NCBI GenBank assembly: GCA_003520455.1
Contig: DOUV01000445.1
Span: forward strand, 1-6,135
Length of the DNA stretch: 6,135 nucleotides
DNA from: Chloroflexota bacterium
GTDB lineage: Bacteria; Chloroflexota; Anaerolineae; Ardenticatenales; Ardenticatenaceae
Direction: 5' to 3'
Positions within the stretch are counted from its first letter, which is position 1, and each line of letters starts with the position of its first letter. A program made the translations under genes and the position numbers. Of this stretch, positions 2,132 through 5,825 are shown piece by piece. The notes below the pieces were generated by a model that searched no databases, was not told where the DNA came from, and saw only the letters and a program-made list of their open reading frames with translations.

Positions 2132-2303
2132 TCGTGCAACCGACGTCTAAGCGGCCCTGCTGCAAAAGCGCAGGCATCGCCGAAAAAACTGGCAGGCGAT
2201 ACAATGCGCCAATTGAGAAAGCGCTCGCGCCAGCGGGCGTGCTGTCACTTCCATTTCTTACCGGTTGGTGCGCCGCAATCTGTGGTCGCGCGGGAATACG
2301 CAG

Positions 2304-4547
2304 ATGGCGAAGAATCAGGAACTCACGAACGTCGAGAAACTGCGCGGTTTCCCCTGGAGCATCGCCTCGAACGCAGCCAACACAATCTTCGTCCAATTCA
2401 CCTTCTTCGGCTCGGTCTTCGTATTGTTCTTGAGCGCGTTGGGTCTGAGCAAGAGCGAGGTGGGCTTTCTTCTGTCGCTGCTCCCCTTCACGGGGGTCAT
2501 CGCCCTCTTCATTGCGCCGGCCGTCGAGCGCTACGGCTACAAGCGCGTCTACCTGACCTTCTTCGGAACGCGCGATTTCGTTGCCGCGTTCTTGCTGTTG
2601 ACGCCCTGGGTGCTGTCCAACTTCGGGCAACAGGCCGCGTTGCTGTTCGTCTCGGTGATTGTTGCGGCTTTCTCTCTGCTCCGCTCGGTCGGCATGACTG
2701 CCAGCTTTCCCTGGATTCAAGAGTACGTTCCCAATGCCGTCCGCGGGAAATACACTGCCACCAACAACATCTTCACGACCATCACGGCATTCGTGGCGGT
2801 GATGACAGCAGGCTACGCCTTGCGTCTCGCGACTGGCTTCTTCGGGTACATTTTTTTGATCGGGATCGGTGTCATTTTCGGCTTCATCTCGGTCTGGTTG
2901 GCCTCATTTATCCCGGGGGGAGCGCCGAAAGAGCGGCGACGGACACAAACAGCGGAGCGGCGAGACCTCTGGCAGGCAGTCGGCGATGGGGACTTCCGTC
3001 GCTATCTGGTGGGCGTCGGCATCTTCACTTTGGCAACTGTGCCGCTCGCATCGTTCTTGCCCCTCTTCATGCAAGAGCAGGTGGGCCTCAACCCGGGCGC
3101 TGTCGTCTGGCTCCAGATCGGGAGCCTCGGCGGTGGCCTCATCGCAAGCCCGCTCTGGGGGTGGGCCGCCGATCGCTATGGCAGCAAGCCGGTCATGCTC
3201 ATGGGAATTTTCCTCCGGATCACCCTCCCTCTGTTCTGGATGGTAATGCCTCGCCACAGCGCCGTGAGCCTGGCTGTCGCTCTGGCGACCTTCGCGCTCC
3301 AAGGGCTCGCCGATATAGGGTGGGGCATCGGCTCCGCCCGTCTGCTCTACGTGAATGTCGTGCCACCCGCTCAGAGAGCCGACTATATGGCGCTCTACAG
3401 TGCCTGGACTGGGGTTGTCGGGGGCATCAGCCAGTTGATTGGCGGGCGGGTGCTCGAAGCCTCGCAGGATGTCACCGGGCAGTTCCTGGTCTTCACGCTT
3501 GACCCGTACCTCCCCCTCTTTCTGATGGGCTTGATCTTGCCGGTGGGGGGTGCCCTGGTGCTCCAGTCAATCCGCGTCGAGAGCGATGTCACCGTCGGCG
3601 AGTTTGCTGGGATCTTCCTGCGCGGCAATCCTTTCCTGGCCATGACCTCGTTGGTCCGCTATCACCTGGCACGAGACGAGCAGGCCACTGTGCAGGTCAC
3701 GGCGCGGTTAGGGCAGGCCAAGAGCCCCCTTGCGGTGGAAGAACTGCTCGAGGCCCTCTGCGATCCGCGGTTCAACGTGCGCTTCGAGGCAATCCAGGCC
3801 ATCGCGCACAGTGCCCCGGACGAGCGGCTCATCAACGCCCTGGCCGACATTCTCAACGGCCCCGAGCCAGCCCTCAGCGTGATGGCGGCCTGGGCTCTCG
3901 GACGGCTGGGGGACGAACGGGCCATCAAGCCGCTCCGTACCGGCTTGCACGCCAGTTATCGCTCGGTGCAAGCGCATAGCAGCCGGGCATTGGCCACGCT
4001 GGGCGATCACGACTTGATTCCTATCCTGCTGGAGCGGCTCGCGATTGAAGGCGATTACGGCCTGCGCGTCGCCTACGCCTCAGCATTAGGCAGACTCGAC
4101 GCCGAGGAGGCGACCAGCCAGATTCTGGGTATCCTGCGTACCAGTCGGGAGGAAATAACGCGTCTGGAACTCGCTTTTACTCTGGCTCGCATGCTGGGCG
4201 ATGAACACCACTTTGTTCGCTTGTTGCGCCAGCTTCGCGCCGACGCGGGGACGGCAACGGCTCAAGAACTTGCAGCCCTCAAGAAGAAGCTGGAGAAACT
4301 ATCTCCGGAGGACAGCGCCGTCGTCACGCTGCTGGAAGAGGGCATCGACGCCTTCGCCCGCGATCAGATCGCCCGTGGCACGGCGGTGCTCAGCCAATTT
4401 CTGCACCAGTTGCCGTGTAATACCATCAAAGGTGCCTGTCCTGCCATCCTCGACGAGTGTGCGCACCGCCTGGCCCAATACGGTGCCTCACGCCCCGAGT
4501 ACGTTTTGTTAACTCTCCACGCCCTCCAGGTATGCTTGCTGGGGTAA
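2304..4547 (+). CDS. MFS-type transporter fused to C-terminal HEAT repeats
   Basis: This 747-residue inner-membrane protein has two parts. Residues about 20-425 form a Major Facilitator Superfamily domain with many hydrophobic spans. The second half carries a canonical motif A, GWAADRYGSK (286-295), and the matching loop of the first half is a weaker APAVERYGYKR (71-81). A charged cytosolic loop (about 205-232) separates the halves. Residues about 445-645 are HEAT-type helical repeats, for example PLAVEELLEALCDPRFNVRFEA and VMAAWALGRLGDERAIKPL, followed by a lysine/glutamate-rich helix (about 653-670). I chose ATG 2304 because GGGAA at 2292-2296 precedes it by seven bases and residues fit a short cytosolic N-terminus; TTG at 2265 has no such site and would add 13 residues. 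Transport substrate is unknown. The tail may bind a partner or regulate transport (inference). It stands as a single gene, 111 bases before the next start. Confidence 0.85.
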   Translation: MAKNQELTNVEKLRGFPWSIASNAANTIFVQFTFFGSVFVLFLSALGLSKSEVGFLLSLLPFTGVIALFIAPAVERYGYKRVYLTFFGTRDFVAAFLLLTPWVLSNFGQQAALLFVSVIVAAFSLLRSVGMTASFPWIQEYVPNAVRGKYTATNNIFTTITAFVAVMTAGYALRLATGFFGYIFLIGIGVIFGFISVWLASFIPGGAPKERRRTQTAERRDLWQAVGDGDFRRYLVGVGIFTLATVPLASFLPLFMQEQVGLNPGAVVWLQIGSLGGGLIASPLWGWAADRYGSKPVMLMGIFLRITLPLFWMVMPRHSAVSLAVALATFALQGLADIGWGIGSARLLYVNVVPPAQRADYMALYSAWTGVVGGISQLIGGRVLEASQDVTGQFLVFTLDPYLPLFLMGLILPVGGALVLQSIRVESDVTVGEFAGIFLRGNPFLAMTSLVRYHLARDEQATVQVTARLGQAKSPLAVEELLEALCDPRFNVRFEAIQAIAHSAPDERLINALADILNGPEPALSVMAAWALGRLGDERAIKPLRTGLHASYRSVQAHSSRALATLGDHDLIPILLERLAIEGDYGLRVAYASALGRLDAEEATSQILGILRTSREEITRLELAFTLARMLGDEHHFVRLLRQLRADAGTATAQELAALKKKLEKLSPEDSAVVTLLEEGIDAFARDQIARGTAVLSQFLHQLPCNTIKGACPAILDECAHRLAQYGASRPEYVLLTLHALQVCLLG

Positions 4548-4643: not shown

Positions 4644-4652
4644 AGAGAGGAG
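4644..4652 (+). promoter_or_regulatory. Ribosome-binding site fixing the start at 4659
   Basis: The purine-rich AGAGAGGAG ends six bases before ATG 4659, the strongest Shine-Dalgarno match in the window. It matters because it shows that translation starts upstream of the in-frame TGA. The gene therefore should not be called from the internal GTG at 4815 or ATG at 5097. Confidence 0.75.
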
Positions 4653-4658
4653 TCATCG

Positions 4659-5051
4659 ATGGCTGATCTTCGGGGAACGACGCGGGCGCCTGAGCTTCCG
4701 CCCGGTCTGGAGTGGCTCAACACGCCGCGGCCGCTCACGCTGGAGGCGCTGCGCGGCAAGATCGTGATCCTCGAGTTCTGGACTTTTGGGTGAGTCAACT
4801 GCCATCATAATTTCGTGCAGTTGCGCGAACTCCGCGAACGGTTTTCGAATGAGCTGGTCGTTATCGGGGTCCACTCGGCAAAGTTCCCTTCCGAGCAGTT
4901 GACTGCGAACATCCGGGAGGCGATTCGGCGCCACGATATTCACCACCCGGTGGTCAACGATGCCGGCTTTCAGATCTGGCGTCAGTACGGCGTGAATGCC
5001 TGGCCCACGGTGGTGCTCATTGACCCGTTGGGGAACTACGTCGGCTCGTAG
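4659..5051 (+). CDS. Thioredoxin-fold domain with in-frame TGA at the active site (selenocysteine candidate)
   Basis: Reading TGA 4791-4793 as an amino acid gives a 130-residue domain of the NHLRC2-type thioredoxin-like family, ended by TAG at 5049-5051. The order is a linker (1-32), strand [11 protein letters not shown] (34-44), the active site [TGA]-V-N-C (45-48), helix (49-64), strand [12 protein letters not shown] (67-78), helix, HPVVND (96-101), the cis-proline loop AWPTVVLID (114-122) and LGNYVGS. Family members normally carry Cys at position 45 in CxxC, so the TGA replaces precisely the attacking cysteine, as Sec does in many redox proteins. The TAG falls just before AGEIAADAFAPLIEAM, the usual last helix, and the same frame then runs on to 5825. 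It is therefore the front of a longer gene. Ordinary termination at TGA would leave only 44 residues. Cytosolic; no signal peptide. The domain call is firm; function versus decay is open. Confidence 0.7.
4812..4829 (+). promoter_or_regulatory. Candidate bacterial SECIS hairpin after the TGA
   Basis: As RNA, UUCGUGC (4812-4818) pairs with GCGCGAA (4823-4829): six Watson-Crick pairs, one G-U, and a four-base loop AGUU with G second. The loop starts 25 bases after the UGA. From memory, bacterial SECIS elements have a small apical loop with a G in its first two positions about 16-37 bases after the UGA, so this fits. A competing hairpin, CAACTGC (4796-4802) with GCAGTTG (4817-4823), is perfect over seven pairs but its 14-base loop begins too close to the UGA. 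Short hairpins are common by chance in GC-rich DNA. Confidence 0.4.
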
Positions 5052-5096
5052 GCCGGTGAGATCGCCGCCGATGCGTTTGCCCCACTGATCGAGGCG

Positions 5097-5825
5097 ATGA
5101 TCGCGGATTTCGACCGCGAGGGACTGGTCGATCGCCGGCCGCTCGATCGCCAGCCTGAGGCCGAGCCGGCTCGCCCGCTTCGTTATCCCTCGAAGCTCCT
5201 GGTCACACCCGATGGCCGCCTGTGCGTGGCCGATACCGGCCACCACCGGATCATCGAGCTGCGGCTCGACGAGGGCGTGGCCGACGATCCCTTCGTCGCG
5301 GCCGAGCTGTGGGGACCAGACGGAATCGCCGTGCTGGGGCCGAGCGAGGGCCATCGGGAGTCGGCACGGTTCTCCATCGCGGATACCAACAACCACCTCA
5401 TCCGCGTTGGCGATCTCGAGAGCCGAACGGTGCGAACGCTCACGCTCTACGGCCTCGAGCGGCTCCAGCCGCGGCCGACTCGAGAACCGGTCGCGCGTCG
5501 CCTGCCCCCGGTGACCGTTGCCCCCGGCCTGATCACACTCACCTTCGATATCGAGCTACCGCCCGGTTACAAGCTCAACGACGAGGTCCCGCTCGCGTTT
5601 CGTGTTGAGCAGGACGGTGGTATCCATCGCTTCCCGGCCGGCGAGCCACCTATGCTCCGCCTCGACGTAGAGTCGGCCCGCGAGCTTGACCTGGATCTCA
5701 CGCTCTCCTACTGCCAGGCGGCGGACGAGCGGCTCTGCAAACGACTCGTGCTACCGATTGCGGTGGCCGAGAACGGTCCATTCTCTGTTGAGGTCCCCTA
5801 CTCCATTCCGGTGGGTACACCGTGA
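5097..5825 (+). CDS. C-terminal NHL-repeat and DsbD-like part of the interrupted thioredoxin/NHL gene
   Basis: This is the same reading frame as the thioredoxin domain, separated from it only by TAG 5049-5051; homology resumes right after the TAG. Counting from the ATG given here, residues about 30-56 (YPSKLLVTPDGRLCVADTGHHRIIEL) and about 72-115 (WGPDGIAVLG, then SIADTNNHLIRVGDLESRTVRTL) are NHL repeats. Residues about 138-237 resemble the beta-sandwich tail of this family: VTVAPG, LPPGYKLNDEVPLAFRVE and a YCQAADERLC pair (Cys 206 and 214) that recalls the DsbD N-terminal domain. Family members usually have several more NHL blades, so about half of the propeller is absent, probably by in-frame deletion. 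GAGG lies only two bases before ATG 5097, too close for efficient initiation, so independent translation is doubtful. Best read as the back half of a broken or recoded gene. Confidence 0.6.
   Translation: MIADFDREGLVDRRPLDRQPEAEPARPLRYPSKLLVTPDGRLCVADTGHHRIIELRLDEGVADDPFVAAELWGPDGIAVLGPSEGHRESARFSIADTNNHLIRVGDLESRTVRTLTLYGLERLQPRPTREPVARRLPPVTVAPGLITLTFDIELPPGYKLNDEVPLAFRVEQDGGIHRFPAGEPPMLRLDVESARELDLDLTLSYCQAADERLCKRLVLPIAVAENGPFSVEVPYSIPVGTP

Follow-up and report, generated by a model that had tools for sequence, protein, structure and literature searches.

Evidence for an apparently undescribed selenocysteine branch of the NHLRC2/SOQ1 family in Chloroflexota, and a gene copy read as its young pseudogene

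The window, the whole stretch of 6,135 nucleotides analysed here (contig DOUV01000445.1 of a Chloroflexota bacterium), carries a disrupted gene of the NHLRC2/SOQ1 family with an in-frame TGA in the active-site motif. With a probability of roughly 0.8, this gene descends from a working selenoprotein that belongs to a selenocysteine (Sec) branch of the family in Chloroflexota, and the window copy itself is a young pseudogene. The conservation of the codon, the conservation and covariation of a downstream hairpin, the Sec machinery in the genomes of relatives, the family and fold, and the lesions of the gene were all computed. The initial annotation had proposed a candidate UxxC selenoprotein. 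This is supported by the conserved Sec codon, the bSECIS hairpin and the Sec machinery of the relatives, but a working selenoprotein from the window copy is unsupported, as the copy carries a TAG and its propeller is mostly lost. The features of the gene are as follows.

4649–4652, + strand: GGAG, likely ribosome-binding site, 6 nt 5' of ATG 4659 (sequence).
4659–5825, + strand: disrupted gene with a Sec-type thioredoxin domain, a shortened NHL propeller and a C-terminal domain, NHLRC2/SOQ1 family (Pfam; alignment with 12 relatives).
4791–4793, + strand: TGA, apparent Sec codon, first position of UxNC (same codon TGA in 70/70 fetched TGA-form relatives, TGC or TGT in 41/41 fetched Cys forms).
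4800–4802, + strand: TGC, putative resolving Cys of UxNC (sequence).
4812–4829, + strand: bSECIS hairpin, stem 4812–4818 with 4823–4829 (7 pairs), loop AGUU 4819–4822, 25 nt after the TGA (same register in relatives; covariance model).
5049–5051, + strand: TAG, second in-frame stop, located in the final strand of the thioredoxin fold (residue 131, strand 127–132, in the model of the intact Sec relative L017).
5273/5274, + strand: junction at which a single block of 237 residues is lost in frame (residues 152–388 of P0001, the protein nearest to the window gene).
5738/5739, + strand: 4 residues lost in frame from the C-terminal domain (comparison with P0001).

The frame from ATG 4659 reads EFWTFG-[TGA]-VNCHHN, which confirmed the FWTFG-[TGA]-VNC originally reported, with the TGA at 4791–4793 and the TGC at 4800–4802. 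Of the 37 TGA-form relatives in the first set, 35 have a start codon 36–43 residues ahead of FW; the distance in the window is 39. The later starts at which a gene caller had been expected to begin, GTG 4815 and ATG 5097, are indeed in frame, and the frame from ATG 5097 is open to 5825. The Pfam search assigned Thioredoxin_8 to the piece 4659–5048 (E 1.6e-13) and NHL to the piece 5052–5822 (E 4.4e-9). The motif of the window is GUVNC, which differs from the CC(I/V)NC of the NHLRC2/SOQ1 family as written and is its Sec variant; many relatives have CU[IMV]NC and others GU or AU. As expected of a selenoprotein gene, the in-frame UGA occupies a redox position where homologues have Cys; the frame is not intact apart from this UGA, since the TAG follows at 5049–5051. 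The in-frame TGA is not explained by a changed genetic code, a reading that was rejected because TGA terminates the window genes ending at 622 and 1620 as well as this very frame at 5825.

The codon was followed in the DNA of relatives from two samples. In the class sample of 396 genomes, 118 had a match to the thioredoxin part with E no higher than 1e-20. Of these, 48 were followed (best match at E 5.9e-44 or lower, the next row being at E 1.0e-29) and comprised 13 genomes with exactly one in-frame TGA and 35 without a stop; a further 10 TGA loci were fetched from the lower group beyond those 48. The phylum sample of 400 genomes gave 82 matches at E 1e-36 or better, 58 of them with one TGA and 24 without a stop. 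One genome of each kind was common to both samples, which leaves 70 TGA genomes and 58 non-TGA genomes, and in the former the TGA is the only stop within the 130-residue match. The same codon was TGA in all fetched TGA loci, both in the first set (37/37) and in the held-out set (33/33). The placement of the TGA at the first Cys position of the CxxC of an NHLRC2-type protein was borne out as well: the site is TGC or TGT in each of the 41 loci fetched from the 58 stop-free genomes, the count leaving aside the codons of the other 17. The search for homologues with U or C in this column that had been suggested at the outset thus found TGA in 70 loci and a Cys codon in 41.

The 70 TGA loci contain 63 distinct 51-nt stretches; among the 33 held-out loci there are 26, so these do not represent 33 independent cases. 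Several TGA forms (L017, L021 and L055) lie on contigs longer than 1 Mb, and this argues against an origin from poor assembly.

The AGUU loop lies exactly 25 nt after the codon in 37/37 TGA loci of the first set vs 0/22 Cys loci, and in 29/33 vs 4/19 loci, respectively, of the held-out set. Overall, it was found in 66 of 70 TGA loci compared with 4 of 41 fetched Cys loci. The four remaining TGA loci (L114, L115, L119 and L120) have CGUU at this place, by our reading consistent with a GUU loop shifted downstream by one base. The stem of the first-set TGA loci reaches up to 7 pairs or more. Among the Cys loci with AGUU, L125, L126 and L132 keep much of the stem and L135 does not, while L124, a Cys form with CCINC, retains the stem with the loop AGCU (L123–L132 are the CCINC loci of the held-out set). 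Judging from these sequences, L124, L125, L126 and L132 are possible relics of a conversion from Sec to Cys.

The stem also covaries. Across the 37 TGA loci, 92.3% of the cells were paired vs 80.5% in shuffled alignments, two-sided changes occurred in 20 cells vs 7.6, and the covariation score was 0.324 vs 0.143, a value reached by none of 500 shuffles; the number of pairs with a two-sided change (4) was within the range of the shuffles (100/500). The same columns in the 22 Cys loci were paired in 37.0% of the cells vs 37.3% after shuffling, with a covariation score of 0.114 vs 0.098 that 64 of 500 shuffles reached. A covariance model built from the 37 TGA loci without the window matched the window at 4791–4841 with 44.1 bits (E 7.9e-13), the next best window match having 2.5 bits. 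All 22 Cys loci scored between 11.1 and 28.2 bits, because they share the coding sequence.

The layout of the window hairpin (loop AGUU at +25, 7 pairs) agrees with the bSECIS model in the accessible part of PMC13188914, i.e., a loop 16–37 nt from the UGA, a G in the first two loop positions and a stem of 4–16 bp; this agreement concerns the layout only, the energy limit of the model aside. A looser energy scan for bSECIS-like hairpins preferred another hairpin in the window, with its loop at +29 and −9.6 kcal/mol. The scan passed 37/37 NHL-type TGA loci and 10/10 short TGA loci but also 8/22 Cys loci, and therefore the case rests on the register and the covariation counts. The fold of the window strand alone, in three cuts after the TGA, was unremarkable (z −0.17, −1.30 and −0.94), and the four Rfam matches on the window were all below their gathering scores.

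Taken by itself, the TGA might have arisen from a Cys codon by simple nonsense mutation in a gene that is dying, as Cys forms of the family are common and the same gene bears further lesions. This explanation is scarcely credible, and random nonsense was rejected, given that the same TGA stands in 70/70 fetched TGA forms, that 58 of the 82 phylum-sample matches have one TGA and that the hairpin is conserved, the window included. The initial annotation had likewise held that more than chance was at work, and had named the dying gene as the main rival. A dying gene fits the window copy, with its second stop and propeller loss; the TGA is not the lesion and appears to come from Sec-coding ancestors. 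From its conservation, the TGA at 4791–4793 looks like a real, inherited signal for Sec insertion.

The Sec machinery was searched in the genomes of the relatives. A selA gene over the cut-off was found in 68 of 70 TGA genomes (12/13 in the class set and 56/57 among the others), the completeness of the genomes being unstated. Among the class-set genomes with TGA (13 in all), selB was over the cut-off in 12 and selD in 13, and selD itself has one in-frame TGA in 12 of them. The tRNA-Sec search, run with stricter filters over 40 genomes, gave a strong match (>60 bits) in only 9 of these 13. Most Cys-form genomes also carry the machinery (selB in 28/35, strong tRNA-Sec in 26/35, selA in 20/23), so its presence does not separate Sec from Cys forms and was set aside as a weak separator. 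The selA count of 0/7 in one set of Cys genomes is not independent, because those seven were picked for the lack of selB over the cut-off. Two genomes have uneven sets: G278 carries the TGA gene, selA, selD and tRNA-Sec, yet no selB over the cut-off, and G222 has a strong tRNA-Sec match (76.1 bits), yet neither selA nor selB over the cut-off.

We infer that Sec is actually inserted at the codon. In the proposed mechanism, the AGUU-loop hairpin 25 nt downstream of the UGA would be bound by SelB carrying Sec-tRNA, and the UGA would be decoded as Sec. In the ancestral protein, a thioredoxin domain and a six-bladed NHL propeller would have been followed by a C-terminal beta domain. Within the cleft that separates the thioredoxin domain from the propeller, the selenol at position one of UxNC would attack a disulfide or a comparable substrate; the resulting mixed bond would be resolved by the Cys that lies three residues further along. 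Codon, hairpin and resolving Cys are retained in the window copy, which would have become a young pseudogene through the TAG further down the frame and the disappearance of the greater part of the propeller.

The assignment to the family is based on sequence and structure. P0001 matched the structures of plant SOQ1 (7djk, E 2.2e-91) and human NHLRC2 (6gc1, E 3.1e-80). The model of L017, with U entered as Cys, had a mean pLDDT of 91.9, and its best structural matches were 6gc1_A (39% identity, TM by target 0.82) and 7djk (40%, 0.90). By our reading of the strands, the model comprises a thioredoxin domain at residues 1–153, six blades at 179–492 and a C-terminal beta domain. The combination of a thioredoxin-like domain and a six-bladed NHL propeller is thus present in the Sec relatives, as modelled for L017, and absent from the window copy.

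In the tree, the thioredoxin parts of 38 TGA forms, one of them the window, fall into a single branch together with two nested Cys forms (SH-aLRT 96). The window falls in a subclade of eight with L016, L017, L018, L019, L020, L021 and L079 (support 90). Its end branch measures 0.37 vs a median of 0.13, which is within the range of the subclade (0.069–0.48). The tree is a quick one with SH-aLRT support only, five long end branches and no root inferred, and on the evidence of a single Sec branch with nested Cys forms, this branch probably acquired Sec a single time, with secondary losses here and there.

A second, shorter thioredoxin clade (L080–L089, about 105 residues after the motif, 10 loci fetched) also has TGA at the first motif position. 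Its loops are GGU, GUU and AGUUUG, and L083 bears the CCGC-AGUU-GCGG stretch of the NHL clade. No NCBIfam model was over the cut-off on the two members of this clade that were searched.

The statement in the initial annotation that homology continues smoothly on both sides of the TGA did not hold. Relative to P0001, the TAG at 5049–5051 is followed by the absence of 237 residues at 5273/5274 and of four more near 5738; both the second in-frame stop and the shortened NHL part had been overlooked. In the L017 model, the lost block corresponds to about residues 208–445; it runs from blade 1, at its last strand, as far as blade 5, and approximately two of the six blades are left. The relative-rate test against P0001 gave no clear excess of changes in the window gene (unique changes 2 vs 1 before the TAG and 25 vs 16 after it), and the codon-position composition is preserved after the TAG.

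Because of the second stop and the loss of most of the propeller, the copy is read as a young pseudogene, and we infer that it gives no working product. The gene might instead be an intact selenoprotein gene of a living organism, with the TAG and the losses being sequencing or assembly faults of the contig. Several points agree with such faults: the window is possibly a contig from a metagenome, neither loss shifts the reading frame, the rate of change in the thioredoxin part is normal and the codon-position composition persists beyond the TAG. Three separate lesions would then all have to be faults, and the clean in-frame loss of 711 nt between unlike repeats is atypical of base error, which makes this explanation unlikely, if still worth weighing. 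Far less probable is a split gene that still works, with a short Sec thioredoxin (4659–5048) and a separate C-terminal piece (from 5097) both being made: the Sec codon, hairpin and resolving Cys are intact and the frame from ATG 5097 to 5825 is open, but the TAG interrupts the fold in its last strand, ahead of the final helix, and about two of six blades are left. We therefore read the window copy as a young pseudogene of a genuine, widespread and apparently undescribed selenoprotein, an assembly fault being possible; it may show a selenoprotein gene at an early stage of being lost.

Other features of the window were recorded. At 1744–1775, in intergenic DNA 3 kb upstream, 32 nt are 94% identical to 4760–4791, which code for EFWTFG just before the Sec codon. 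No further match to the family was found around it, and a second gene copy was rejected, as the match is limited to these 32 nt and is covered by none of the best 15 outside matches; the fold of this repeat alone had a z of −0.39. A long hairpin (1665–1708, arms of 19 nt, 95% complementary, 6 nt apart) follows the gene ending at 1620. The gene at 2265–4547 encodes a major facilitator transporter fused to HEAT repeats, 53–54% identical to proteins in three Chloroflexota genomes, in which only distant thioredoxins were found (best E 2.2e-8).

In the protein database search, 7998 candidates were scored and 5328 passed, and the figures given here refer to the best 120. Among these, 47 start downstream of the motif, 73 have Cys there and none contains U; each of the best 15 relatives begins downstream of the motif and does not contain it. 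P0034 (‘alkyl hydroperoxide reductase’, Chloroflexi bacterium) and P0048 begin with MNCHHN, directly after the Sec codon. Gene callers produce such proteins when the relatives, too, have a stop at this position. The databases thus list such proteins without their active site, which would have kept the family hidden.

No description of a Sec form of the NHLRC2/SOQ1 family was found in the literature covered, in the accessible parts of its sources; preprints and most subscription papers were outside this scope, so that ‘undescribed’ is likely rather than certain. The accessible text of a 2026 review of 119 families or subfamilies (PMC13188914) contains neither ‘NHL’ nor ‘Chloroflex’, that of deep-Sep (PMC12013277) neither ‘NHL’ nor ‘thioredoxin’, and that of PMC1794560, which counted three selenoprotein families in Chloroflexi in 2006, no ‘NHL’. 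In NCBIfam (June 2026), no model was over the cut-off on the window pieces, P0001 or three intact relatives. In our assessment there is a good chance that the thioredoxin-propeller proteins of the NHLRC2/SOQ1 type that carry Sec, found in 70 genomes of two Chloroflexota samples and equipped with an AGUU-loop SECIS of their own, make up a whole undescribed selenoprotein family.

If so, the second Cys of the CCINC motif would be the likely catalytic nucleophile of an essential human protein. According to the accessible part of PMC6107167, NHLRC2 is linked to FINCA disease, its function is unknown, it is inactive in the insulin reduction assay and its CCINC motif lies in the cleft between domains. 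Sec and Cys replace each other naturally at one position of the motif, which is good evidence for redox chemistry there; as selenoproteins can be labelled with 75Se, the reaction would become easier to look for.

Compared with known systems, the Sec relatives share the thioredoxin domain followed by a six-bladed NHL propeller with human NHLRC2 (6gc1) and the lumenal part of plant SOQ1 (7djk). They differ in that U stands at the second Cys of CCINC (motif from the accessible part of PMC6107167), while the window has GUVNC and a damaged propeller. The C-terminal part of DipZ from M. tuberculosis (2hyx, 5cyy) has a related thioredoxin domain (E 1.8e-5 with P0001) and, according to the same part of PMC6107167, the motif SCINC; it is a Cys form without the NHL propeller architecture. 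The Prx-like thiol:disulfide oxidoreductase, thiol-disulfide isomerase-like and redoxin selenoproteins of Table 1 in PMC13188914 also combine UxxC, a thioredoxin-like fold and a bacterial SECIS. In the accessible part of that review they are listed under single thioredoxin-type domains, and it is by these descriptions, under which a generic row might include an NHL fusion, that the family of the window gene is set apart.
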